Source: Bradyrhizobium diazoefficiens
GTDB taxonomy: Bacteria > Pseudomonadota > Alphaproteobacteria > Rhizobiales > Xanthobacteraceae
Reading direction: 5' to 3'
NCBI RefSeq assembly: GCF_016616425.1
Contig: NZ_CP067101.1
Span: 744,001-808,000, forward strand
DNA: 64,000 bases
A program made the translations under genes and the position numbers. Within the stretch, counting starts at the first letter, position 1. Each line of letters begins with the position of its first letter. Positions 50,640 through 64,000 of the stretch are shown here, one piece after another. The notes under the pieces were generated by a model, which did not search any database, was not told the DNA's origin, and saw nothing but the letters and a program-made list of their open reading frames with translations.

Positions 50640-51050
50640 TGCGGCCTCGACAGCGCGGTGGCCGAGCACATCGAGCAGCGCCTTTTGCAGCCCAAACGTC
50701 TCGAGGAGTGCGTGACCGAGCTGAAGGCTGTCCGCGACCAGGCCTGTGCTGACGCAGAGCGGGCCGAGGGCGCTTGGTCGAGCTGGGCCGAGCATATCAC
50801 GCCGCAGGCGCTCAAAACCTTCGCCAGCCTAGCCCGCAGTCGCATGCGGACCGAGACGGGTGGTTACCGGCGCGACCACCTTCGCGCCCTGGCCCAGCGA
50901 GTGTAAGTGGGTGCGAAAGAAGTTCGGATCATGGGGTCGAAAAGCGTACTCCTGCGCACGCTTGTCGCGGCATCCGGCGAAAAATCGGCAGGTTTTGGCG
51001 TGCCCAGTTATGTACCGAAATGGCGCACCCGACACGATTCGAACGTGTGA
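50640..51050 (+). pseudogene. C-terminal remnant of a serine site-specific recombinase, with an in-frame stop
   Basis: The frame encodes EHIEQRLLQPKRLEECVTEL, then RSRMRTETGGYRRDHLRALA and QRV before a TAA at 50904-50906. Without a frame change the sequence continues VGAKEVRIMGSKSVLLRTLV and GFGVPSYVPKWRTRHDSNV up to a TGA at 51048-51050. These are the contiguous C-terminal parts of large rhizobial serine recombinases. A single codon change (most likely GAA to TAA) interrupts the gene. The N-terminal catalytic domain is absent from the upstream sequence. The last nine codons overlap the tRNA-Arg fragment at 51021-51069. Confidence 0.72.
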
Positions 51051-51069
51051 CCTTTGCCTTCGGAGGGCA
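51021..51069 (-). other. 3' fragment of tRNA-Arg (CCG): probable integration attachment site
   Basis: On the minus strand the 49 nt run from within the anticodon arm (loop CTCCGAA, anticodon CCG) through the variable loop AGGTC and T arm (ACACG/CGTGT around TTCGAAT). They end with the acceptor strand CGGGTGC, discriminator G and CCA. The 5' half is absent: the base beyond 51069 breaks the anticodon stem. Such a fragment is the direct repeat (att) left when an element integrates into the 3' end of a tRNA gene. The tyrosine integrase starts 147 bp to the right. The intact tRNA must lie outside the window. Confidence 0.82.
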
Positions 51070-51215: not shown

Positions 51216-52490
51216 GTGACTGAAAAAAGACGTATTGGAATTCGTGAAATCAATTTCCTGAAGGAGTCGAGCACTGTCTGGGACCGAGATGTCCCCGGCT
51301 TCGGCGCAAGACGCCAGAAGTCAGAAGCCGTGAGCTATGTCGTGATCTATCGGACCGCCGAAAATCGGCAGCGCTTTCACACGATCGGGAGGCATGGCGC
51401 GCCGTGGACGCCGGACACGGCTCGTAAAGAGGCAAGGCGGATATTGGGTAGTGTCGCGACCGGTGCCGACCCAGCGGCGGCTAAAAAACAAAGGCGACAT
51501 GCCGAAAGCATCACTGCGTTGTGCGACCTTTATCTTGCCGACGCGGAGGCTGGCCGGCTCCTGACGAAGCGAAAGACGCCGAAGCAGAGTAGCACTATCA
51601 TTACGGACCGAAGCCGTATCGAGCGGCATGTGAAACCTTTACTCGGACAGCGCGCTGTCGCTTCGGTGACAAGCTCCGACATCGAGTTCTTCATGCATTC
51701 AGTCGCGGAAGGTAAGACGGCGGTCAGGGCACAAACTGGTAAATCACGGGGATTGGCGATCGTTCGCGGGGGGAAGGGCGCTGCTAGCCGAACCGTCGGC
51801 CTTCTGGGTGCAATCTTTTCCTACGCGGTCCGGCACCGCATGCGGAGCGACAATCCGGTGCGTGGGGTTGAAAGATTTGCAGACGGTCGTCGACTGCGCC
51901 GTCTGAGTGACGGCGAGTACACGGCGGTCGGTAATGCTATTCAAATGGCAGCTTCGGGAGGCACTTGGCCGCCGGCACTGGGGGCCGCCACCTTTCTTAT
52001 CCTGACAGGATGGCGGACTGGAGAAGTAATCGGATTGACGTGGCAAGAGATTGATCTTGCCCGCCGAACAGCCACATTGGGTAGCACGAAAACCGGCCTG
52101 TCTATGCGCCCCCTCTCGCGCGCCGCCTGCGATCTTTTGCAAAAGCTCGACAAGCGATCGGGGTTGGTCTTCGAAGCTGCACGAGGCAATGGTCCCATGA
52201 CAGGCTTTCCAAAGTTTTGGGCTCGGATAGTCATGCTCGGTGGCCTCTCGCAGGATATTACTCCCCACGTGCTGAGACATTCGTTCGCTTCCTTAGCCAA
52301 TGATCTAGGGTATTCGGAGCCTACGATTGCGGCTTTGATCGGCCACAAAGGCCGATCAGTGACTTCCCGCTATGTGCACAGCGCAGACGCAGTTCTGTTG
52401 GCCGCCGCTGACGTTGTGGCTAATAAGACCTGTGAATTGATGGGGTTGACACGAAATCCTGACATTGTTCGTTTTAAGCAGATTGCCTAA
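51216..52490 (+). CDS. Tyrosine-type site-specific integrase
   Basis: 424 residues. The N-terminal half has the phage-integrase SAM-like core-binding domain (SRIERHVKPLLGQRAVASVTSS). The catalytic domain carries the RHRY-type set: Arg in LTGWRTGEV, HxxR in HVLRHSFAS, His in LIGHKGRSV, and the nucleophilic Tyr in TSRYVHSAD. The start is the GTG at 51216, with GGAGGTG upstream. The tRNA-Arg fragment beside it and the unrelated cargo on its right identify it as the integrase of a genomic island that extends past the window. Confidence 0.95.
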   Translation: MTEKRRIGIREINFLKESSTVWDRDVPGFGARRQKSEAVSYVVIYRTAENRQRFHTIGRHGAPWTPDTARKEARRILGSVATGADPAAAKKQRRHAESITALCDLYLADAEAGRLLTKRKTPKQSSTIITDRSRIERHVKPLLGQRAVASVTSSDIEFFMHSVAEGKTAVRAQTGKSRGLAIVRGGKGAASRTVGLLGAIFSYAVRHRMRSDNPVRGVERFADGRRLRRLSDGEYTAVGNAIQMAASGGTWPPALGAATFLILTGWRTGEVIGLTWQEIDLARRTATLGSTKTGLSMRPLSRAACDLLQKLDKRSGLVFEAARGNGPMTGFPKFWARIVMLGGLSQDITPHVLRHSFASLANDLGYSEPTIAALIGHKGRSVTSRYVHSADAVLLAAADVVANKTCELMGLTRNPDIVRFKQIA

Positions 52491-52652: not shown

Positions 52653-52805
52653 ATGGGGGCCAAGAAGCAGTTCCTGACCAGCATGGATCCGGACGTCATC
52701 CGTCGGATCAAGTCGGCGGCCGCGCTGCGCGAAACGACGGCTTCGCTGGTGATGGAGCAGGCCGCCGCCGAGTGGCTCGAGCGCCATCAGGACGGGAAGA
52801 AGTAA
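52653..52805 (+). CDS. Ribbon-helix-helix (CopG-like) small DNA-binding protein
   Basis: 50 residues: a KKQFLTSMDPDVIRRIKSAAA strand-helix, then ASLVMEQAAAEWLERHQDGKK helix. This is the fold of MetJ/Arc/CopG repressors, which bind as dimers with a beta ribbon in the major groove. The frame is open upstream to a TAG and could start at another codon 5' of the ATG. It sits between the integrase and the cargo operon and may regulate the element. It could also be a lone antitoxin-like protein, but no toxin gene is adjacent. Confidence 0.65.
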   Translation: MGAKKQFLTSMDPDVIRRIKSAAALRETTASLVMEQAAAEWLERHQDGKK

Positions 52806-52835
52806 TCCACCCCAAATGGCATTTCGAGCCGGCTG

Positions 52836-55199
52836 ATGTCCTCAGGCAGCGCAGACACGCAGACCCAAGACGATCTCGACGGGGAAATCGCCGAGCTCTC
52901 CGCCACGATCTCGCGCGATCCAAAGGATTTCAAAGCCTATCGCCGCAGAGGCCTCCTGAAGGCCCGCTGCCGCAGGTACGACGAGGCGCTGGTGGACCTC
53001 GAGCGCGCGCTGAAGCTCGCGCCCGACGACGGCCACGCGTACGGCCTCAGAGCGCTGGTCTGGGAAAAGAAAGGCGACCGTGACCGCGCGCTCCGCGACT
53101 TCGACGAGGCGATCCGGCTCGCCCCCCGCGACGCGATCCTGTTCCGGTCCCATCGCGACCGCGTGCTGTCGGAGGGTCGCGGCGGGCCGATCGCGGCCGG
53201 CGACTTCAATCTCCTGAAGAACCCCTTCGTCCTCCTCGGCCTGCCGCCCGACGCCAAGCCCGCGGCGGTCAAGGAAGCTTACGAAGACGCGATCGAGGAC
53301 GAGGCGGACGAGCCGGACGTCCTGATGCGCGCGCAGCAGACGCTCCTGACGCCGCGGCTCCGGATCGAGGCCGAGATCGGTGGCTTCCTCGACGTCGATC
53401 CGAGCCTGGCGACTCAGATCGTGTCCGATATCCGCGTCGGAAGGCCGATCGGCGAAATGAAGGAGCGTCTGACGCGCCTCCACTCCCTCCCGAGATCGAA
53501 CGTCATCGCCCATTACGGCTCGGCGGGGCCGCTCGAGCTCGACCAGCTCGGTGATCTGATCGAGGCGCAGGCCGCCGTCGCGCCGGGCGCCGTGAGCGAC
53601 GCCATCAACGACGTGCGCCAGGAGAACGCCTTGGGCCGCGTCGACCGCGACGCCGTCAGCGAGGCGCTTTCCAAGCTACTCGATCGCCAGACCAAAGCGG
53701 TCATCGAGGCCCTGGGCTTCGGCGACCGGGCGGTGGCTCTCTTCGATCTGTTCGTCTCGCGGATCGTCGCCGGCGGGGACAGCGCGGCGGTCTTCAGTCT
53801 CGACGTCTACGTCTCGATGTTCCGCCAAACCGTGGCTTCCGAGCTCTCAAAACGCAGCGAGGCCGTGGTCGCGGCCTGCGATGAGGTCCGCAAGAATCCG
53901 AAACCGGATGCCGCGTACCGCAAACTCGACAAGGCGCTGCGCTTCTGGATGGCGCTCGTTCGTCCCGTCCAGACCTACGAAACCCACCGCCAGCGCGAGG
54001 ACGCCGCCACCCGGGAAATGTACGGGACCGTCCGACAGCTCGCGCTCGATCTTTCCAACGATCAACGCGAGTTCGAAGGCGCGGAAAAGGTGGTTTCCAT
54101 CGCGTCCGGAGTGTTCGGCCACCTGCCGCGCGCCGCCGACCAGATGACCGAAGACACGAAACAGCTCTCCGAACTGCGCAACGACAAGCTGGCCGACGAA
54201 CTGCTCACGCCGCTGCTGCAGGCTTGCGAGCAGGCCAACAATTCGCACCGCACGATCGAAGGCGAATTGCTCAAGGCCGGTTTCGGTCCCGGGTCGGTCG
54301 GGAGCGCAAGATCCATCTTCGACAAGTTCGCAGCGGCCGTCGATGCGTCCGCGCAATTGCCCTTCTCGGATGCGCCGTGGCGGCTGGTCCGCTCGATCGC
54401 CATTTCGCTGAACAACGACTCGTCCTCGCCGCAAGCCGCCGACAAGATCATCCAAGGACTTCTCGACCACGCGATGCATAAGCCGCCCTCGACGGACATG
54501 CTCGCGATGCTGCGGGAAGACCAGCGCGCCGCCCGCAAGATCCTCGTCGAGAACGACCTGACGAAGAATCTGAGGGCGCAAAAGTGGAAGGAGACGGAGC
54601 AGCTCGCGGAGAGGCTTCTCACCCTGGAAACGGACGAAGAGAACTTGAGCGCCGTGCGGACCATCCGGGATGCCGCGGCCGCCAAGCGCAAAGCCAACAC
54701 CCGAGTCCTTTGGTTCTGGGCCATCGTGATCGTGGGCGGCGGGATCTGGGCGATTCTGGCCAACGGCGGAAGCAACTCGGGATCCCAGACGACCCCATAC
54801 CGGCCACCACCATCCTATTCCAATACGCAAACGTGGCCGCCGGCACAGTCTCAGACAGCCAACCCACCACCGCAAAGGAGCGAAAGCTTCGATACCGGCG
54901 AGACGATGCCGTCGGCCGGCACGGGTCTGGCGCTGACCCGGGCCAACATCCGCTACTGCGCATTCCAGCGCGTGCGGATCGAGGCCGCCCGGCCCCTGAT
55001 TCAAGCCGGCGCGCAGAGCCAACCCTTCAGCGCGGCGGTCGACGACTACAATTCGCGCTGCAGCGACTATCGCTATCGGCAGAGCGACAAGGATGCCGTC
55101 GATGCCGACCTTCTCGGCAGACGGTACTCGCTGGAGTCCGAGGGACGCGCTCTCGCGGCGTCATGGCGACTATCCGGTCCGCCGGCGACGCGGCGATGA
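52836..55199 (+). CDS. TPR/J-like domain membrane protein of the Hsp70 operon
   Basis: 787 residues. Two to three TPR repeats at residues 20-110 (AYRRRGLLKARCRRYDEALV and AIRLAPRDA) are followed by a J-domain-like segment at about 125-190. It begins NPFVLLGLPPDAKPAAVKEAY and has no HPD tripeptide, so it may contact Hsp70 without stimulating it in the usual way. A long helical region (200-610) precedes one transmembrane segment (WFWAIVIVGGGIWAIL, about residue 625). A Pro/Gln/Ser-rich linker and a roughly 80-residue C-terminal domain with Cys follow. The stop overlaps the next ATG (ATGA). It probably anchors or feeds the chaperone at the membrane. Confidence 0.7.
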   Translation: MSSGSADTQTQDDLDGEIAELSATISRDPKDFKAYRRRGLLKARCRRYDEALVDLERALKLAPDDGHAYGLRALVWEKKGDRDRALRDFDEAIRLAPRDAILFRSHRDRVLSEGRGGPIAAGDFNLLKNPFVLLGLPPDAKPAAVKEAYEDAIEDEADEPDVLMRAQQTLLTPRLRIEAEIGGFLDVDPSLATQIVSDIRVGRPIGEMKERLTRLHSLPRSNVIAHYGSAGPLELDQLGDLIEAQAAVAPGAVSDAINDVRQENALGRVDRDAVSEALSKLLDRQTKAVIEALGFGDRAVALFDLFVSRIVAGGDSAAVFSLDVYVSMFRQTVASELSKRSEAVVAACDEVRKNPKPDAAYRKLDKALRFWMALVRPVQTYETHRQREDAATREMYGTVRQLALDLSNDQREFEGAEKVVSIASGVFGHLPRAADQMTEDTKQLSELRNDKLADELLTPLLQACEQANNSHRTIEGELLKAGFGPGSVGSARSIFDKFAAAVDASAQLPFSDAPWRLVRSIAISLNNDSSSPQAADKIIQGLLDHAMHKPPSTDMLAMLREDQRAARKILVENDLTKNLRAQKWKETEQLAERLLTLETDEENLSAVRTIRDAAAAKRKANTRVLWFWAIVIVGGGIWAILANGGSNSGSQTTPYRPPPSYSNTQTWPPAQSQTANPPPQRSESFDTGETMPSAGTGLALTRANIRYCAFQRVRIEAARPLIQAGAQSQPFSAAVDDYNSRCSDYRYRQSDKDAVDADLLGRRYSLESEGRALAASWRLSGPPATRR

Positions 55200-55585
55200 G
55201 TGAGCAGGAAAGCAATGCGCGCGAACGAGGGACGCTCATGACGGACGGCGAAGATACGATGGCGCGGCTCGCGGTCGAATATTGGAAGCTGCTGCGTGTA
55301 CTGGAGCGGGCCCTGGACAGCGTTCCCGAGGACCGGCGCGAGAGATACGCCTCGCAGGGGCGCTACGCGGCCGACCGACTCGACGAACTTCTCCGAGATC
55401 GCAGGATGTCGGTTCAGTCGTTCGACGGGATGGACTTCGAGGTCAACCTGCCGGTATCTCCCGTCAACGGGGATGAGTTCCAGGGACGCGCCGACGTCGT
55501 GGTTGCTCGTACCATCGAGCCCGCCGTCATCGCGGACATGCGTCCCGTTCTGATGGGCAAGGTCTACCTGGCGAGCAAGGAGTGA
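55196..55585 (+). CDS. Small acidic protein between TPR and Hsp70 genes
   Basis: 129 residues, largely helical in the first half (ARLAVEYWKLLRVLERALDS and RYAADRLDELLRDRR) and beta-rich in the second (GMDFEVNLPVSPVNGDEF, then TIEPAVIADMRPVLMGKVYL). The ATG overlaps the upstream stop and the last codons overlap the region of the Hsp70 ribosome-binding site. The position next to Hsp70 suggests a GrpE-like nucleotide exchange or cochaperone function, but there is no sequence similarity to GrpE. No family was recognised. Confidence 0.6.
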   Translation: MSEQESNARERGTLMTDGEDTMARLAVEYWKLLRVLERALDSVPEDRRERYASQGRYAADRLDELLRDRRMSVQSFDGMDFEVNLPVSPVNGDEFQGRADVVVARTIEPAVIADMRPVLMGKVYLASKE

Positions 55586-55587
55586 GC

Positions 55588-58131
55588 ATGTACCTCGGCA
55601 TCGATTTGGGAACGTCCAATTCGGCCATCGTCGGCAACGACGGTCGGGAATTGCGCCTCTACAAGACCGTGGACGGGTCGGATGTGCTCCCGAGCGCGAT
55701 CATGATCGACCGCCGGGGCGGCATGTTCGTCGGAAAGCGGGCCTACGAGCAGGATGCCTTCTCGCCGGAGAACGTCGGCAAGAAGTTCAAACGCCTCATG
55801 GGCACCTCGAGCCCCATCGAATTCAAGAGCGCCGACCGGTCGATGAGCGCCGAGGAGGCCAGCGCCGAAGTGCTCAAGACGCTCCTGGCGCAGGCCAAGC
55901 TGGCGGCAGGTCAGTTCGATCTTGAGGGCACCGTCATCACGATCCCGGCGGCGTTCAATCAGATGCAGTGCGAAGCGACCATGCGGGCGGCGCAGGCCGC
56001 CGGCATCGGCCGCGTCGGCCTGGTCCAAGAACCGATCGCAGCCGCGATGGCGTCGATCGCCGATCGTCAACGACGCAATTCGGCGTTGAAGGACGGTCAA
56101 TTCCTCGTCTACGATCTGGGAGGGGGTACGTTCGACGTCGCCATCGTGCAGAGCGTCGGCGGTACGATCAATGTCGTTGGTCATGGCGGCATCAACATGC
56201 TGGGCGGCACCGATTTCGACCGCCGCGTGGTGAATGAGATCGTCCGGCCCTGGCTCATGGGCCAATTCGATCTTCCGGACGACCTGCAGAAGGATGCGAC
56301 CTATCAGCGCGTGCTCAGGATCGCGGCCTTCTATGCGGAGAAGGCCAAGATCGAATTGTCGGCGCAGACCGCCACGCGCATTTCCGCCGACGAAAGCCAA
56401 CTCGCGTCCCGCGACCTGGCCGGGAAGGAAATCTACCTCGACATTCCGTTCGAGCGACGGCAGCTCGAGGATCTGGTCTCCGATCAAGTCGACCGATCAA
56501 TCGATGCGTGCCGGAAACTGCTCAAGGAGAACGGCTACCAGAGCGGCGATATCGATCGCGTGGTGTTCATCGGCGGCCCGACCCGCATGCCAATCGTGCG
56601 TTCGCGCGTCCCGGAACAGCTGGGCATCGCCGGAGACCTCGATTCCGACCCGATGACAGCGGTCGCATTCGGCGCCGCGATCTTCGCAGAGAGCCGCGAC
56701 TGGTCCGGCGAAGCGGTGACCGCCAAACCGACGCGGGCGACCGCCAAGGCCGGCGGGGCCATCAAGATCGAATACGGCTATCCCGAGCGCACCTCGGATG
56801 CACGGATCCGGATACGGGTCAGGCCGCAGCCGGAAGCGCAAGGCCAAGGTTACCGCCTCCAGATCGACAGCGACATGGGTTGGACCAGCGGGCAGCTGCC
56901 TCTCGACGGCGCCACCTCCGTCAACGACGTGCCCGTCGCGCGCCGGGGCGACAACCAGTTCCGGGTGATGGTGTTCGACCGATCCGGAAATCCCGTGCAG
57001 GAGGCTGAAACCAGGCTGGTGGTGAAGCGCACGGACGCATCGTCTTCGGGCACACCGATCACCCACACCATCGCCGTCAAGGTGGTGGTCGACGAAGGCG
57101 GTCTCCCCAAGAATACGCTGCATGGACTGGTGGCGAAGGGACAATCGATACCGGCGAGCGGCACCGAGACCTACCGGGCCGCGAACGATCTGAAGGGCGG
57201 AGAGAAGGCGGGACTCGATTTCGAGGTCTACCAGATGGAAGCGGGGGTGACCGATCCGGCCCTCAATCTCCATGTCGGAAGCTTCCGCGTGGAAGGCTCC
57301 CAGCTGGAGATCGGCGACATCATCCGTCGCGGCGACGTCGTCCGCGTGCACTGGAATCTCGACGAGAACGGGCTCCTGAACTGCGCGCTCGAAGTGCCCT
57401 CGATCGGCCGCCGCTTCGACACCGGCAAGATGTTCACCGATCAAGGGGCCAGAAAGAGCTTCGAAGGGCGGGAAGGCGAGGAGCTCGCCAATTCCGTCCT
57501 CGACACGACCGCGATCGAACTCGAAGAACTCGAGCGCGCCCTCGGTGCGAAGCGCAGCGCCGCGACGGAGGAACTGAACCGGCGGCTGGACGAACAGCGC
57601 GAGAACCTGAGGACGTCCTTCGAAGCGGACACGCGCCGATCGATCGCCGAGGAGGGTCGCGCCATCAGGCAGGAAATCTCCCGCATCAAGAACCGTCCCG
57701 AAAACGTAGGCGCCGTTCTGACGGAAGAGACGGATCGTCTGGTCCAGGACTACGATTCCATCGTCCGGCCCCACGCGCCCAAATCCACGAACGATCGGTT
57801 CGACGCGCTGCTCGCGCAGGTTCGGGAGGCGCTCCGCCATGGCCGGCCCCACGACGCGCGAAAGTCTCACTCCGAAATGTTCGCGATCTTCATCAATGGC
57901 GCCAAGGAGCATCCTGGCTTTCAGGTCGACTTGTTCCTCGCCTTCTCCCGCGAACGCCACCTGGCCATCGACAAGGCGCTGCACGACAGGTTGGTCGCCG
58001 ATGGACAGGCCTGCATCGACAGAAACGATCTGGAAGGATTGCGCCGGACCATCGGACGAATCCTCGAGAACCAGATACCGACCACCGCCAAAAACGCGGC
58101 CAGCGCGGCGCTCGCTGGCCTCATGAAGTAG
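55588..58131 (+). CDS. Divergent Hsp70 (DnaK-like) ATPase
   Basis: 847 residues, longer than the roughly 640 of DnaK. The actin-like ATPase core is intact. YLGIDLGTSNSAIVG is phosphate 1, VYDLGGGTFDVAIVQ is phosphate 2 and VVFIGGPTRMPIVR is the adenosine motif. After about residue 370 comes a long beta-rich region (about 390-620, including HTIAVKVVVDEGGLP). A coiled-coil (ELEELERALGAKRSAATEEL and nearby) and a helical C-terminus follow. The substrate-binding half is not DnaK-like. GGAG lies 5 nt before the ATG at 55588. It is encoded with the TPR protein and AAA+ ATPase, so it is specialised rather than the housekeeping chaperone. Confidence 0.88.
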   Translation: MYLGIDLGTSNSAIVGNDGRELRLYKTVDGSDVLPSAIMIDRRGGMFVGKRAYEQDAFSPENVGKKFKRLMGTSSPIEFKSADRSMSAEEASAEVLKTLLAQAKLAAGQFDLEGTVITIPAAFNQMQCEATMRAAQAAGIGRVGLVQEPIAAAMASIADRQRRNSALKDGQFLVYDLGGGTFDVAIVQSVGGTINVVGHGGINMLGGTDFDRRVVNEIVRPWLMGQFDLPDDLQKDATYQRVLRIAAFYAEKAKIELSAQTATRISADESQLASRDLAGKEIYLDIPFERRQLEDLVSDQVDRSIDACRKLLKENGYQSGDIDRVVFIGGPTRMPIVRSRVPEQLGIAGDLDSDPMTAVAFGAAIFAESRDWSGEAVTAKPTRATAKAGGAIKIEYGYPERTSDARIRIRVRPQPEAQGQGYRLQIDSDMGWTSGQLPLDGATSVNDVPVARRGDNQFRVMVFDRSGNPVQEAETRLVVKRTDASSSGTPITHTIAVKVVVDEGGLPKNTLHGLVAKGQSIPASGTETYRAANDLKGGEKAGLDFEVYQMEAGVTDPALNLHVGSFRVEGSQLEIGDIIRRGDVVRVHWNLDENGLLNCALEVPSIGRRFDTGKMFTDQGARKSFEGREGEELANSVLDTTAIELEELERALGAKRSAATEELNRRLDEQRENLRTSFEADTRRSIAEEGRAIRQEISRIKNRPENVGAVLTEETDRLVQDYDSIVRPHAPKSTNDRFDALLAQVREALRHGRPHDARKSHSEMFAIFINGAKEHPGFQVDLFLAFSRERHLAIDKALHDRLVADGQACIDRNDLEGLRRTIGRILENQIPTTAKNAASAALAGLMK

Positions 58132-58132
58132 C

Positions 58133-59458
58133 ATGTCCGGCTTTCCTTGGTTTCCGATCGGTCACAAGCTCGCATCCGGCACCGTCGGCAGGCTGCGGGC
58201 GGAAGGGCCGGGCTACCAGGTGTTGCAGGAGCAGGCTGGCGACGCCCTGATGCTCGTTCTTGCCGGCGGGGAGCCGGCCGCGGATGACGCGGCCCGGATC
58301 GACGGTGCCTCGCAGTTCGCCGAGTTCGAGTTCGGCGGCCGCCGCTTCCTGACCGTGCCGGTGGCGAAGTCCTCCGAGCCTGTGCCGTTGCTGCACTGGC
58401 CAAAGCGCTTCGGGCTGCCCACGACCAGCGACGTCAGAGCCCTCGGTAAGGCGATCGCCGGCATGCGCCGGCGCGCTCCGCGGGTCGAGGTGGCGAGCGC
58501 CCTATTTCTGCCGGCGTTGGAAGCGTGCCTGCCGGTCAAGGACGCCGAGGCGGCGGAAGACCTGAGGCAGGTCGCCGCGCAGATACTTACGGCTTCGCAG
58601 GCATCCGTACAGGACGTCGGATCGGTGCGCGACGCCAATCCTTGGGTCTCCGCCGACGACATCGCCTTCTTCCTATCGGCGCTCGGTGTTTCAGAACTCG
58701 CGGAGCCGGTCGCGCCGGAAGCCTTCGCCTTACCCGGTCGCCCGGCCCTCGAGGCTTTCTTTCGCGAGTACGTCATCGAGCCGAGCGCCGATCCCGAGAG
58801 GTATCAGGCGCTGAGGGTGCAGTTGCCGAACGGAATTCTGCTCTACGGACCGCCCGGATCGGGCAAGACCCACGCGGTGGATACGCTGGTCGCTGCGCTG
58901 CGGCGGCCGACGTTCAGGCTGGATCTCGGAGAAGTCGGAAGCCCCTTCATCCACCAGACGACGGTCGCGATGCGACAGGCCTTCGAGCAGGCCAAGCGCA
59001 GCGCCCCGTCGCTGCTCGTCCTGGAGGAGATCGACGCGGTCGCATCGGCGCGGGGGCCGATGTCGCAGGACCACAAGGTGGAGGAATTGACCGAGATCCT
59101 CAGGATGATCGAAGCGGCCGCCAAGAACGGCGTCCTGGTTCTGGCAACGACGAACAGGAAGGAAGTGCTCGATCCCGCCGTCTTGAGAACTGGACGGTTC
59201 GACCACTCGCTGCTTGTCGACTACCCCACGAAGGAGGAAGTCGAACTCGCCCTGAAGGGCATGCTGAAGGACCGGCCGCACGACGCGCTGGATCTGTCAC
59301 AAACCAGCCAGGCGTTGGCGGGGCGCCCGATGAGCGACGCCGCCTGGGTCGTGAACGAAGCCGCACGGCTGACCGCCCGCGCGAAACAAGATAGGATCAG
59401 CGGCGTTTTTTTGAATGAAGCACTTAACCGTCTTCGCTCCAGCACTTCGATCACGTGA
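58133..59458 (+). CDS. AAA+ ATPase (Cdc48/FtsH-like family)
   Basis: 441 residues. An N-terminal domain of about 200 residues without a recognised fold is followed by one AAA module. Walker A is GPPGSGKTHAVDTL near residue 237, Walker B is LLVLEEIDAVAS (the EE pair replaces the usual DE), sensor 1 is LVLATTNRKE and the SRH arginine lies in TGRFDHSLLV. Such ATPases form hexamers that unfold or disassemble proteins. There is 1 bp between the Hsp70 stop and this ATG. It is the last gene of the plus-strand operon and converges with the GAP1-like gene 24 bp away. Confidence 0.85.
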   Translation: MSGFPWFPIGHKLASGTVGRLRAEGPGYQVLQEQAGDALMLVLAGGEPAADDAARIDGASQFAEFEFGGRRFLTVPVAKSSEPVPLLHWPKRFGLPTTSDVRALGKAIAGMRRRAPRVEVASALFLPALEACLPVKDAEAAEDLRQVAAQILTASQASVQDVGSVRDANPWVSADDIAFFLSALGVSELAEPVAPEAFALPGRPALEAFFREYVIEPSADPERYQALRVQLPNGILLYGPPGSGKTHAVDTLVAALRRPTFRLDLGEVGSPFIHQTTVAMRQAFEQAKRSAPSLLVLEEIDAVASARGPMSQDHKVEELTEILRMIEAAAKNGVLVLATTNRKEVLDPAVLRTGRFDHSLLVDYPTKEEVELALKGMLKDRPHDALDLSQTSQALAGRPMSDAAWVVNEAARLTARAKQDRISGVFLNEALNRLRSSTSIT

Positions 59459-59482
59459 ACGTCGGGCGCATAGCGACCAATC

Positions 59483-61528
59483 CTACCAGAGCGCGCGCTT
59501 GACCACGCGAAGCCGCTCGCTGGCGATTCCGTGCTCTGTAAGCCGATCCCTGACCGATTTGAGGTACCGCTGTCCGCCGTAACCATTCGCCACGACATCG
59601 ACTAGGGCGGTGAATATGTCGTCGCGTTCGGTGACCCTTAGGAAAGAAGCGGCGTCGATCTCACGGTCGAGATACATGCCCGCGATGGTCTGCCGGATAC
59701 GGACGCATTTATCCCAGTTCGGCCACCAGAACGAGCGATTGAGACGGTAATCGAGAAGCTGCCAAGCGTCCGCAGGCAAAGAGCCTCGCTCAGCGGCGGC
59801 GTAGACCGGGTCGAACGAGGACTCGACGAGCCCGGCGCTGTCGAAGGTACTCCGCCCGAGAGAGCGAGCCAAAAGGAATGAGGCCAGATACGTATTCGTC
59901 ACCCGCGCCGATACGCGGCGTACAGCTGTCAGCCAAGGATCCTCGCCGAACGCGTTCGGGATCGCATCTGGTCCCACCGCACGGGCGATGGCTTCAAGCA
60001 TCTCGAAGCTTACGATACGCTGTTCGACCAGAAGACGCGCGACGGCGTCCGAATCCGACACGACGTGCGAAAGCCAGGCGCGGGCTGCATCGCCTCTCGG
60101 TCCGGCATCGCCGATCAACCCGATCGCCTTCCGTAGCACCGCATCGCTGCCGAATGTCGCGCGGGCTTCGCGCGCCAACGGCCTTCCAGACCGGATCATC
60201 GCTTCGATGACGTCGTCAACGATGTCCTGTCTCGTCGCCACGAGACGAAGCGAGTCCTCCTTCGAAGCACCGGGCAAAGCCCAATAGGCGGTTTCCGTCG
60301 CAAGATCCGGCCTCAAGCTGACCAGCTCGATTTGACGCGTCGGCGCTGAGGCAACGCCCGCGACGAGGATCTGAGTGGACATCGCCGCGATCGCACGCTC
60401 GGCTATCGGTCTCCGCTCGGAATCCGACAGGATGCCGAGCACGCATTCCGGATCGATACGCCACAGCGCCTGCCCGACGCGCTCTGCGGCGGAATGGGCT
60501 TCGGCGGGATCGATCAGACCGAAATTGCGCACGACGAACTGCAGACCTTCAGGTCCCAGACGGTCGGCGACGCTCGCGGCCGCCCGGACGATCGACGAGC
60601 GGGCTGCATGCCCCTGGTCGCTCGAGATCGTCCGCTCCAACAGCGATATCGCACGCTCGACGGCGGACGGGTCTGATTCGAAGTGCAGCGAAAGCGCGTG
60701 CAGCGTCGCCAGCGGTTCGAACGATTCCCGACCGCCCACGTCGCTACCCGCAGCGCGCAGAAAACGACGCAGCCTGCCGTCGGGCCCCTCCTTCAGATCG
60801 GTGACTGCGCCCTCCAGCCACTCGGTCGCCACGAAATCCCGCCGATCGGCATCGATGGCGCTCTTGAACTGGTTGGGCCTCACCCGTCCGGACGACGGCA
60901 GAAACTGAAGATCGAACGTTGCGTTCGCGGAAGATCGGTCGGCGAACGAAAGCGTGCAAAAACGGAAGGCACGCCTCAGTCGCGGCCATTGCTGATCCCA
61001 GATCGCCAGCACCAGCGCGTCGCGCGCGGGCATGTCGGCGGCAGCCGAAACGATCGGCCTGGCGGGATCGCCGTACACAGCGGACAGGATTCGCCGGGCC
61101 AGATCGTCGGATGCGCCGGGCCGATCTTCCTCGTTCGTCGACACGTGAGCGATTTCGCTACCGTAGGATTTTTCATCGCCCTGCGGCCGCCGGAACAGCT
61201 TCAGGAGCCCGCCCGCGCCGCGCAGCGAGGGGATGTCGCTGAAGTCGATGAGGATGGTGTGCGTCCACACGCATCCCGGACGCGGTAATTCCGGCGCAGG
61301 CCAGGTTCGCCCGAGAGCGTAGTGACCGCTCTCGGGCAAGGGATAGCCCGTCAGATAACCGTCCTGGCCGATGGTCGCCGCCGGCCCGGACGCGTCGCTC
61401 ATCATGAGCAGCGTCTTCGCATCCCGCGACGGCAGATCGAGCGAAGATGCGAGCAGACGATGGCCATCCGAATACCCGTGGAGCGTCTGCTGCAGCGGCA
61501 CTCGCAGATCGCTCACTCCGTGAGCCAT
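59483..61528 (-). CDS. GAP1-like (GTPase-associated protein 1) family protein
   Basis: 681 residues. The N-terminal domain contains QQTLHGYSDGHRLLASSLDL, DGYLTGYPLPESGHYALGRT and PGCVWTHTILID, which I recognise as the GAP1-N1 pattern. A long helical-repeat-like region follows (RAISLLERTISSDQGHAARS and similar), probably the adaptor middle and C-terminal domains. There is no catalytic motif. The family occurs next to TRAFAC GTPases in predicted conflict systems, and the two GTPases upstream fit this. Its start overlaps the GTPase 1 stop by 16 nt. Confidence 0.75.
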   Translation of the reverse strand: MAHGVSDLRVPLQQTLHGYSDGHRLLASSLDLPSRDAKTLLMMSDASGPAATIGQDGYLTGYPLPESGHYALGRTWPAPELPRPGCVWTHTILIDFSDIPSLRGAGGLLKLFRRPQGDEKSYGSEIAHVSTNEEDRPGASDDLARRILSAVYGDPARPIVSAAADMPARDALVLAIWDQQWPRLRRAFRFCTLSFADRSSANATFDLQFLPSSGRVRPNQFKSAIDADRRDFVATEWLEGAVTDLKEGPDGRLRRFLRAAGSDVGGRESFEPLATLHALSLHFESDPSAVERAISLLERTISSDQGHAARSSIVRAAASVADRLGPEGLQFVVRNFGLIDPAEAHSAAERVGQALWRIDPECVLGILSDSERRPIAERAIAAMSTQILVAGVASAPTRQIELVSLRPDLATETAYWALPGASKEDSLRLVATRQDIVDDVIEAMIRSGRPLAREARATFGSDAVLRKAIGLIGDAGPRGDAARAWLSHVVSDSDAVARLLVEQRIVSFEMLEAIARAVGPDAIPNAFGEDPWLTAVRRVSARVTNTYLASFLLARSLGRSTFDSAGLVESSFDPVYAAAERGSLPADAWQLLDYRLNRSFWWPNWDKCVRIRQTIAGMYLDREIDAASFLRVTERDDIFTALVDVVANGYGGQRYLKSVRDRLTEHGIASERLRVVKRALW

Positions 61529-62394
61529 GCGACCGGCTCCGTGAGATCTCTCGATAGTTCGGGCGTCATCAGGCGGATTCTCTCCGATGCGTCGTCGAGC
61601 GCCCTGACCATGGCTACCCTTTCGTTGCGGTCCGCATCGCCTTTGGCTTCGTCCGATTCGAAGTCCCCGCCTTGCGCGCTAAGCCCGTAGACGCGTACGT
61701 CCCAACGGTCGACGCCGTTTCGAAGGTACTGGTCGAGCAGAGGCAATTCGCTGGCCAGATACTGCTCGGGCGTGACGTTCTCCTCCTCGACCTTGTCCCA
61801 CGCCGAGAGAACCACGGCGAGCCGGCTTGCCGGAGCCCGCAGAACGTCGCAGCGAAGCATCTGCAGCATCTCGACCAACTGCACGGCCGTCGGCGCGTCC
61901 TTGGGATGCCATTCCTTGGGCGTCCCCGCCGCGCCCGCTCCGCCCTCCAGTCCCGCGGCATACTGCGTCGTCTCGGCCACGCCGATCGGACGCTTGATCT
62001 TGTCGGCATGGACGAACAACAGGATGCCGTCGCAACCGCGGAGTAGCTCGGCCAACTGATGGTCGCACTCCCTGGTTTCCCACATCTGCTGATAGGATTC
62101 GCCGGAAAGATCTGGAAAAGTCATCCGAACCTTGCGACCCGCACCGTCATTGAGATTCATCGACACGATCTTGCCTGACGCAACCTCCGTGTGGATCTGC
62201 TCTTTGGCCTCCAGCCAGCGGCGCATGATCGCGTTCAGGTGCGAGTGGTCGAGACCGACCAGGGAATCGAACTTCAGGCGCGCGTTCGGATCCCGCCTGT
62301 CAAAGACCACGAACCATAGGGCGGCCAGAAACGTCGTCTTTCCCGACGCCGGCAGGCCGCAGATTACGACCGATCCCTCGGTTTTTTCCGTCAT
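61513..62394 (-). CDS. TRAFAC-type GTPase (DO-GTPase1-like)
   Basis: 293 residues with a single P-loop GTPase domain. G1 is CGLPASGKTTFLAAL, G3 is MTFPDLSGES with Asp-x-x-Gly, and G4 resembles LSAWDK near residue 215. TPKEWHPKDAPTAVQLVEML lies between them. The ATG overlaps the upstream gene stop (ATGA, 62391-62394). Together with the next gene it forms a pair of distinct GTPases, as in the predicted double-GTPase systems. Its GTP specificity is inferred from the DxxG and [NTS]xxD motifs. Confidence 0.75.
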   Translation of the reverse strand: MTEKTEGSVVICGLPASGKTTFLAALWFVVFDRRDPNARLKFDSLVGLDHSHLNAIMRRWLEAKEQIHTEVASGKIVSMNLNDGAGRKVRMTFPDLSGESYQQMWETRECDHQLAELLRGCDGILLFVHADKIKRPIGVAETTQYAAGLEGGAGAAGTPKEWHPKDAPTAVQLVEMLQMLRCDVLRAPASRLAVVLSAWDKVEEENVTPEQYLASELPLLDQYLRNGVDRWDVRVYGLSAQGGDFESDEAKGDADRNERVAMVRALDDASERIRLMTPELSRDLTEPVAWLTE

Positions 62395-63392
62395 TCGGGC
62401 GATCCCTGCAGTCGGTGCATGTACCTCGTCGTCGACGAGACGTGGGCAGGCGGTTTCGGTATCGCCCGATGGGCGGTCTCTTCCCAATACGTCAGCAGGT
62501 CGGCCACACCGTGCCCCAGCGGAAAGGAAGTGTCCGAAGGGCAGGCCGCCACCTCGAACGATCGGATCTCTCCGAAGGAGCCGGAGTGCAGTTCGCGGAA
62601 TTTGGCGTCGATCTTCGCGAAATCGCGCTTCGCACGCTCCTTGTCGGCCGATCTCTCGATCTCGTCGAGCTTCGTGAGCACCAGTGCGGCGCGCGGCCGT
62701 CCCTCGATCCCGCCGCCATCGACCAACGCCTGGACTATCGCCAGCATCTCGGGACCTACCGTGTTGCGGGTCACCGGATCGGCCAATTGTCGCCCGTCGA
62801 CCAGAAACGTGATCGTGTCGGCCCGAAGGATCTCGACGAATTCCCGCACGCCGCCCGTCTCATCGGCCGCGGAGCCGTAATCCTCCCCGTTTCGGTCCGC
62901 GACGACGAGGTCGAGCACATCCTCGCCAGGTCTGCGCAGCGCCGCATGGTAGAACTTCACCGTGGTCAATATTGTGCGTTCGGTCTTTGGACGCGCGTTG
63001 CGCGACACGCCGCGGGACGGATGGCAGGCCCGTTCGAATGCGTACATCGTCCGCGAGCCGGCGAACCCCAAGGGCCCGATCGGGCCGCGAAGGAATAGTT
63101 CGAACACGGACGCGATCAAGGTGGTCTTGCCCGCGTCCTTCGGAGCGACGACGGCAATGACGCGCGAGGCCCCGCGCCGCAACACCCGCGACGCCTCCTC
63201 CTGGTCCAACAGGTCGCCCGACGGAAGGACGATCCCGAGCCGCTCGGCCTCGGCAGTATCGGTCGACGGCGGCGCCGCGAGCGGCTTGCCGAAGTGTGGG
63301 CACTTGTTCTTCTCCAGACCCTCGACGCATCGGCCGTCGATCCGCACCTTGCAGGCGGGATTGGCGCACTGGACTACGGCGGTTTCTGCCAA
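62391..63392 (-). CDS. TRAFAC-type GTPase with N-terminal zinc-ribbon-like motif (DO-GTPase2-like)
   Basis: 333 residues. A short N-terminal Cys cluster (QCANPACKVRIDGRCVEGLE with KNKCPHFG following) could bind a metal. G1 is VVAPKDAGKTTLIASVFELF near residue 81. VADRNGEDY replaces DxxG, and LVLTKLDEIE is a clear G4 TKxD, so GTP binding is well supported. The start overlaps no gene, and the stop overlaps GTPase 1. There is a 3-bp gap from the GASH-like gene upstream. The sequence differs from its partner, so this is not a recent duplication. Confidence 0.75.
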   Translation of the reverse strand: MAETAVVQCANPACKVRIDGRCVEGLEKNKCPHFGKPLAAPPSTDTAEAERLGIVLPSGDLLDQEEASRVLRRGASRVIAVVAPKDAGKTTLIASVFELFLRGPIGPLGFAGSRTMYAFERACHPSRGVSRNARPKTERTILTTVKFYHAALRRPGEDVLDLVVADRNGEDYGSAADETGGVREFVEILRADTITFLVDGRQLADPVTRNTVGPEMLAIVQALVDGGGIEGRPRAALVLTKLDEIERSADKERAKRDFAKIDAKFRELHSGSFGEIRSFEVAACPSDTSFPLGHGVADLLTYWEETAHRAIPKPPAHVSSTTRYMHRLQGSPE

Positions 63393-63395
63393 GGC

Positions 63396-64000
63396 TTAAC
63401 CCCCAAATTTCAGGCCCAGCCGCTCGCGATAGAAGAGATTGCCGAGCTCGATGCCCGGCAAGGTCGCGTCGGCGTCGATACCCGTCACCGCCGACCAGTT
63501 CGCGGCCCAGGACGTGTCGTCGCCGGCTTCCAGCTTGCGATGGATGGCGAAGTGCAGAGGGCGGACGAGCGGTGCCGGCTCGATGCCTTCGACGAACTCG
63601 CGAAGCAAGTCGGCGTCGCAAGCGTTGACGGCCGCGGCTACCGCCGTCTTCTTGCGTTCCTTGAGGCCCGCCCGCGAAAGTATCGGCTTCACGGATTCCG
63701 GGCCAGGCATGAACTGGGTGGCGTCAGCGACCTCAGATGCCAGAATTATCGGTTGGGCATCCGCCGGGACCTCGGCGAACGGCCGATCCAGCTTCTTGCT
63801 GCGGCCGCCGAAGAGCCACCAGAGCAGTTGAAGTTCTTCGTCCTGAATCGCGGCGAAGTGCTCCATCGCGTGAATTGCAGCGCTCGCCTTCACGGTCATG
63901 TCGCGCGCAGCGGCGTTCGCCTGGGCCGCGATCATGTTGACGGCTGCAACAACGGTTTCGTGGGTGATACCCTGCTTGAGCTTTTCGATCGTGTCCGCAT
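63396..64000 (-). CDS. GASH-like (GTPase-associated system helical) protein, 5' end outside window
   Basis: The frame is open to the right window edge (first visible codons read ADTIEKLKQGITHETVVAAV), so at least 200 residues of a longer protein are encoded. The visible part is almost all helical. It contains IQDEELQLLWWLFGGRSKKL and DAQPIILASEVADATQFMPG, which match the pattern I associate with GTPase-associated system helical proteins. The ATG at 63935 is only internal. It precedes the two GTPases by 3 bp and is probably part of the same operon. Confidence 0.6.
   Translation of the reverse strand, partial: ADTIEKLKQGITHETVVAAVNMIAAQANAAARDMTVKASAAIHAMEHFAAIQDEELQLLWWLFGGRSKKLDRPFAEVPADAQPIILASEVADATQFMPGPESVKPILSRAGLKERKKTAVAAAVNACDADLLREFVEGIEPAPLVRPLHFAIHRKLEAGDDTSWAANWSAVTGIDADATLPGIELGNLFYRERLGLKFGG

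Follow-up and report, generated by a model that had tools for sequence, protein, structure and literature searches.

The window analysed here is a stretch of 64,000 nucleotides of Bradyrhizobium diazoefficiens, taken from a genome of 7.14 Mb in a single contig (bases 744001-808000); its right-hand part carries two convergent operons: on the plus strand four genes, here called A to D, which form an Hsp70 cassette, and on the minus strand a double-GTPase system of the GAP1-N1 type (Table 1). An earlier note on this DNA had described eight genes in these two operons, with tight junctions, Hsp70 and AAA+ genes side by side in one of them, and only 24 bp between the converging ends. All eight are present where the note placed them, the junctions are as tight as described, the Hsp70 and AAA+ genes do share an operon, and the gap is the 24 bp from 59459 to 59482. 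Pfam profiles place GAP1-N1, DO-GTPase1, DO-GTPase2, GASH, HSP70, AAA and TPR among the products, leaving B unmatched. The reading that we find probable is that these are two independent accessory modules lying tail to tail, of which the first is a mobile, membrane-tethered Hsp70 machine that likely acts on an invader or on an aggregated complex.

Table 1. Features of the two operons and of the adjoining island end, in window coordinates (these are used throughout).
Feature	Position	Strand	Match or remark
3' half of tRNA-Arg(CCG) gene, presumed attachment-site copy, left island end	51025..51066	-	exact 42-bp match
Tyrosine integrase	51216..52490	+	Phage_integrase 3e-19, Arm-DNA-bind_3 7e-10; adjoins attachment-site copy
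A, TPR/J-like membrane protein	52836..55199	+	Pfam TPR 5e-11
B, small GrpE-like protein	55196..55585	+	ATGA overlap with A; no Pfam match above cut-off
C, divergent Hsp70	55588 (ATG)..58131	+	HSP70 9e-63 over residues 3-367; alternative GTG start 55582
D, AAA+ ATPase	58133..59458	+	Pfam AAA 7e-27
GAP1 with N1-type N-terminal domain	59483..61528	-	PF20012 2e-29, score 102 against cut-off 27
DO-GTPase1	61513..62487	-	PF19975 2e-72
DO-GTPase2	62391..63392	-	PF19993 3e-46
GASH protein	63396..64000, cut by window end; full gene to 64496	-	PF19994 1.4e-17 full length
Metallophosphoesterase with C-terminal GAAD	window-equivalent 64496-65791, beyond window	-	Metallophos 4e-12, GAAD PF19976 5e-12

Protein A, whose close named relatives are from Bradyrhizobium, combines its TPR region with a J-like domain at about residues 124-180, which gave 90% probability and an E-value of 1.6e-6 in one hhalign comparison with a DnaJ J-domain profile. 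The HPD motif is absent from this J-like part in 26 of 26 aligned rows, one of which lacks its start. There follow a long helical region, a single transmembrane helix at about residues 624-642 (by hydropathy), and a C-terminal helical domain that would lie outside the cytoplasm; the AlphaFold model has a mean predicted local distance difference test score (pLDDT) of 83, and Pfam gave no FNIII match. Some relatives of A (P0043-P0046, P0048, P0055) carry a UPF0127 (PF02643) domain.

Protein B is a probable nucleotide-exchange factor of C, judging from its alignment in register with 30 GrpE proteins (64%, E 6.5e-5, one hhalign comparison) against 0.1% for DnaJ. The B family profile also strikes the canonical grpE gene of genome G943 (E 4e-4), and in the AlphaFold model (mean pLDDT 90) a beta domain accompanies two long helices. 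PDB matches of B to rhinovirus protease and apolipoprotein E were too weak to retain (E>=1.1). The family appears to be large (4887 proteins at E<=1e-5, 120 of them listed), and some of its members may be true GrpE.

In C, the nucleotide-site residues D8, T11, K70 and E171 are kept in 10 of 10 family members, and the second phosphate motif has its D, its GGG and its T invariant in the same ten. The alignment does not show the usual linker between the domains; in its place an extra stretch separates the nucleotide domain from the segment aligning with the substrate-binding beta domain, beyond which the protein ends in a long tail. This tail matched nothing among 50,697 phage records at E<=1e-3, and its PDB matches (E>=0.05) were set aside as weak. 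Protein D consists of a single AAA domain and a family-specific N-terminal region, and its homologues align from residue 6 onward in all four beta/gammaproteobacterial proteins tested. When compared with the PADLOC models, A, B and C gave no match at E<=1e-3 and D gave matches to its AAA domain alone, for example to IetA (2e-26).

Relatives of this cassette recur across alpha-, beta- and gammaproteobacteria: they were found in Bradyrhizobium, Jiella, Aureimonas, Aminobacter, Sinorhizobium, Polaromonas, Vibrio, Aeromonas and Shewanella, as well as in G994 and G1065 (same phylum) and G822 (same class). The 19 other loci assembled, which include two near-duplicate pairs (L128/L129 and L130/L131) and a 3.3-kb contig cut within C (L031), all have B and C, while A is found in 18 by blastp (the Vibrio A by profile) and D in 10. 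From these comparisons the cassette is conserved as a unit. In eight loci (L126-L129, L197-L200) the gene order is B-C-D followed by the parts of A, and in six of these (L127-L129, L197, L198, L200), which are not limited to beta/gammaproteobacteria, A is split into a J-like gene and a neighbouring gene for the transmembrane and C-terminal domains, so that the two halves of A are linked by fusion. A peptidoglycan-binding domain occurs in the membrane part in Aeromonas (L128) and in the fused A of G356 (L090). The Polaromonas A was itself part of the profiles used to find A homologues, and its blastp match (1.7e-15) was relied on instead.

The cassette is infrequent in genome samples, being found in 7/265 genomes of the genus (own genome among the 265), 3/385 of the class (one marginal) and 3/398 of the phylum, the last count including the own genome and leaving out two marginal B-profile matches in G943 and G1061, that of G943 lying within its canonical grpE. 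Matches to A as such are found in 264/265 genus genomes, mostly to plain TPR or to short C-terminal segments, and those that reach past the TPR part at E<=2.5e-25 are limited to 11/265. Seven of 11 candidate A loci were dropped, the TPR part alone being matched, and two of the four kept coincide, by contig and coordinates, with the G476 and G345 loci and entered the count a single time. Plasmid searches led to 11 places that were opened, the remaining plasmid records being mostly near-duplicates.

Several further observations were made in these searches. Distant A-like proteins with no B or C match in the stretch fetched are present in several Bradyrhizobium-genus genomes (L092-L098). In Sinorhizobium medicae T10 the cassette Hsp70 gene is split by an ISNCY transposase (L130:6978-11380), and G514, of the same genus, has a weakly matching J-like frame (3e-4) on the opposite strand near groES/groEL (L199:14713-15807), which was not counted as a split locus. 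In a Klebsiella grimontii plasmid (L220), a gene row of another kind, which includes an Hsp70 and an MBL hydrolase, lies beside an integrase.

The minus operon is, by its domain content, a representative of a known type, the GAP1-N1 double-GTPase systems (PMC7159879, Kaur et al. 2020). In the parts of that paper drawn on here, these comprise GAP1-N1, GASH, a pair of DO-GTPases of which one bears a zinc ribbon, and effectors, the commonest being a calcineurin-type phosphoesterase often joined to GAAD, and their role in biological conflict is a prediction. The earlier note's recognition of GAP1, GASH and paired TRAFAC GTPases as a predicted conflict system agrees with this published view. Here effector and GAAD adaptor are joined in one protein, the product of a fifth gene of the operon that lies upstream of GASH, beyond the window end. 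DO-GTPase2 has four cysteines within residues 9-31 that might form a zinc ribbon, with no Pfam zinc-ribbon match; DO-GTPase1 likely starts at an inner ATG (62394), giving a 4-nt overlap with the DO-GTPase2 gene; and GASH matches its Pfam family at 1e-16, or at 1.4e-17 when taken at full length. The two GTPases and GAP1 would set a threshold, and GAP1 would release or activate the GAAD-linked phosphoesterase, which is predicted to cut a nucleotide, as the authors of PMC7159879 proposed in those parts; the system would act independently.

Such systems are present in 5/297 genomes of an order sample and 19/265 of the genus, own genome counted in both. Thirteen of the 18 other genus loci match all five proteins, one of the 13 with split GTPase frames, and a plasmid copy is found in Bradyrhizobium sp. 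172. The nearest relative of the phosphoesterase (98%) is in G315 (L075), where both GTPase genes are split in two frames, a decayed GAP1-N1 system.

The earlier note went further and joined both operons into one machine, in which Hsp70 and AAA would remodel an invader or a damaged complex under the control of the GTPase/GAP1 switch. The convergent arrangement at 24 bp would suit such a machine, as would the presence of HSP70, GrpE and J/TPR proteins in ~14% of the published GAP1-N2 neighbourhoods (PMC7159879, same parts). However, none of the five GAP1-system proteins was found in the fetched stretches of the 19 other cassette loci, and the cassette is absent from 21 other GAP1 loci (18 of the genus and three plasmids, two of them contigs of <6 kb with little context) save for one remnant, in G528. 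On these counts, 0/19 and 1/21, we reject the view that the two operons are one conserved locus. At the DNA level, homology to cassette-only loci spans 52813-59407 (91%) and 52867-59398 (73%), and homology to GAP1-only loci begins at 59485 or 59489; as it ends on both sides, the junction of the modules falls within <100 bp. Co-occurrence of cassette and GAP1-N1 by genome in the genus is likewise at chance (0.50 expected against 1 found; counting the remnant, 0.57 against 2, p 0.11), and in G333 a distant A homologue and GAP1 lie ~2 Mb apart on one contig. We therefore consider a single GTPase-controlled unfolding machine improbable. An AAA match near GAP1 in L078 (28%) was rejected as generic.

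The exception, G528, is informative in its own right. The last part of D remains there (residues 243-439, 90% identical) and faces a GAP1-N1 system in convergent orientation. The proteins of that system share 33-47% identity with those of the window, while the DNA past it is 91.6% identical, as if systems had been swapped in the same slot. By eye, an IS21-like insertion left the D remnant, with an istA/istB-like pair against the truncated AAA gene (L077:603-8306). A different GAP1-N1 system thus seems to occupy this place in G528, with flanks common to both genomes; this single case may reflect ordinary island turnover or a selected pairing. The expectation that the two operons travel together in other genomes is borne out only to this extent, that G528 keeps an AAA piece beside a different GAP1-N1 system; no other of the 21 GAP1 loci does so. 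A 94-bp piece corresponding to window 52711-52804, upstream of gene A, is found in G528 just after the D remnant, near a 269-aa frame; this frame, between the remnant and GAP1, has no Pfam match.

Both modules stand at the integrase end of a presumed tRNA-Arg island of ~72 kb. The 42-bp tRNA-Arg(CCG) sequence beside the integrase has two copies in the genome, and the tRNA gene is intact only at the far one, at about G000:C1:866939, ~72 kb from the integrase-side copy; blastn lengthens the identity to 49 bp (window 51021-51069). The integrase, the tRNA copy and the distant intact tRNA back the claim of an integrase-borne island, and an accessory role of the locus is likely. Tyrosine recombinase-like genes stand in a row after the GAP1 system (L005:16975-18884 and the start of L101), one with a Phage_integrase match of 1e-30, and this recombinase-like region is 91.6% identical in G528.

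In other genomes, several copies of the cassette have known defence genes as neighbours: a complete Wadjet (JetABCD) in G345, Thoeris ThsB in Jiella (6.5e-118), Gabija and type IIG in Sinorhizobium meliloti (type IIG 9e-147), Gabija, a BREX helicase (BrxH 4e-276) and ZorA in Polaromonas, and an IetS-like protein in G476 (1.8e-41). Gabija matches near cassettes go down to 1.5e-276 for GajA and 6e-241 for GajB; the Gabija-like neighbours in Aminobacter are weak, and other cassettes adjoin toxin-antitoxin or Tn7-like genes. A McrBC neighbour supposed by eye in G297 (L091) was discarded, as PADLOC gave REase_II (5e-11) and PDC-S02 (4e-9) for one protein and none for the other. For a count, a G+C rule served to select flanking frames of >=250 aa, giving 104 frames from 16 cassette loci (near-duplicates, the short contig, our own locus and G528 being left out) and 180 from 16 windows placed at random in eight genomes; one of these windows (L211) gave a single frame. 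PADLOC matches at E<=1e-100 were obtained for at least 11/104 flanking proteins in 5/16 cassette loci, against 0/180 proteins and 0/16 windows in the controls, whose best match was an RtcR-type regulator (7e-98); at E<=1e-40, 75 families were matched on the cassette side (25 of them listed) against 5 in the controls.

We infer a scheme of membrane topology, biochemical steps, targets and defensive role in which A would anchor the Hsp70 machine in the inner membrane, with its TPR/J-like platform on the cytoplasmic side. Because it has no HPD, A probably recruits clients or Hsp70 instead of triggering ATP hydrolysis. C would be the Hsp70 that grips the client, B would recycle C through nucleotide exchange, and D, where present, would unfold or extract the client held by C. 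Most likely the cassette acts at the membrane on a protein complex that is either an invader's or aggregated, which makes it a candidate defence or remodelling module.

Defence and stress repair are the two serious roles, and defence is ranked somewhat ahead because of the known defence genes near cassettes. More specifically, and tentatively, the cassette could be a widespread stand-alone defence system of a novel type, in which a dedicated membrane Hsp70 machine seizes a protein complex of a phage or plasmid and takes it apart, and which in some Bradyrhizobium islands is paired with an exchangeable GAP1-N1 system as a switch or back-up.

That the cassette instead serves stress repair and protein quality control is possible, though we think it doubtful. 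Its parts are chaperone parts, its membrane tether and the peptidoglycan-binding domains of two relatives (L128, L090) would fit, and mobile protein-quality-control islands are known (PMC8129007, PMC8407380 and PMC8290217, in the portions used here). However, several copies stand beside anti-phage, restriction, toxin-antitoxin or Tn7-like genes. Moreover, D has one AAA domain, unlike ClpB/ClpG. It is unlikely that the cassette belongs to some larger function of mobile elements or of secretion that has to do with neither defence nor stress (transposon cargo or conjugation quality control, for example), for although it adjoins Tn7-like transposition genes in Aeromonas and Shewanella and occurs on plasmids, it is also found on chromosomes and beside unrelated genes, and in the gene tables inspected we noticed no constant link to transfer genes.

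Several points weigh against the reading of two independent modules with an invader-directed Hsp70 machine. The defence enrichment is modest per locus (p 0.022, or 0.051 without RtcR), plasmids make up six of the 16 test loci and account for three of the five positives whereas the controls are all chromosomal, and off plasmids strong defence matches are found in 2/10 loci. No defence neighbour was noticed in L014, L198, L199 and L200, and L199 lies, by eye, near groESL among chromosomal genes, as a stress-repair role would favour. D is an optional member, absent from 9/19 cassette loci, and B has no Pfam GrpE match and an hhalign probability of 64%. Finally, with the remnant and its shared right flank in G528, the slot may not be random, and a weak coupling of the two modules is possible.

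Parting the cassette from the GAP1 system avoids a false functional link and makes each operon testable alone, and the swap of GAP1-N1 systems between shared flanks in G528 lets selection on such slots be tested. If the cassette is protective, it would represent a defence built on a complete dedicated Hsp70 machine, not on nucleases, toxins or nucleotide signals, and this would explain its travel on plasmids and islands of distant proteobacteria. An HPD-less J-like protein that has stayed together with a dedicated Hsp70 and GrpE-like factor would also allow one to test how an Hsp70 may be driven in the absence of canonical J stimulation.

A published description of the Hsp70 cassette was not found in our literature searches, which covered open-licence PMC articles, with bioRxiv outside their scope, so that this absence is not proof; several known systems share features with it. 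Like the transmissible locus of stress tolerance, it consists of mobile protein-quality-control genes. That locus, however, has a two-domain Clp disaggregase and a small heat-shock protein, and the cassette has neither. With the defence system IetAS (an AAA+ protein and an S8 protease) the likeness is restricted to the AAA part of D, which matches the IetA models there, and the plus operon has no S8 protease. Type IV CoCoNuT systems (PMC11090510, in the excerpts used here) also place Hsp70 in a predicted defence context, with Hsp70 units fused to McrB- or McrC-type proteins and some judged very poor at ATP hydrolysis, whereas C is a separate protein with intact nucleotide residues and no McrB/McrC-type domain in Pfam searches. 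The closer general model is DnaK-DnaJ-GrpE with an AAA+ partner, given the conserved nucleotide site of the cassette Hsp70 and its GrpE-like, J-like and AAA+ companions. However, the J-like part is membrane-tethered and lacks HPD, the GrpE-like protein is short, C has its extra stretch instead of the usual linker, and the AAA+ protein is single-domain and optional.

Concerning PMC7159879, whose parts drawn on here cover both GAP1 types, the minus operon shows no essential difference from the GAP1-N1 systems described, as its GAP1-N1, GASH and paired DO-GTPases are joined by a calcineurin-type effector that carries GAAD; those parts make no mention of an adjoining Hsp70 cassette in N1 systems. 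The same parts describe, for GAP1-N2 systems, an HSP70 theme with an FNIII protein fused to DnaJ or TPR. Among loci taken up for comparison with its actinobacterial examples, a Streptomyces plasmid had an ordinary dnaK-grpE-dnaJ and Tsukamurella had no listed GAP1 gene. In the window, the GAP1 protein is of the N1 type, with no GAP1-N2 domain found by Pfam, the Hsp70 genes form a separate convergent operon whose relatives occur without GAP1, and the cassette has no FNIII match and no HPD, and has an added AAA+ protein. Nevertheless, the GAP1-N2/HSP70 theme, as presented in those parts of PMC7159879, likewise brings HSP70 and GrpE together with a J or TPR protein beside GAP1 genes, and it is the closest precedent for the cassette.

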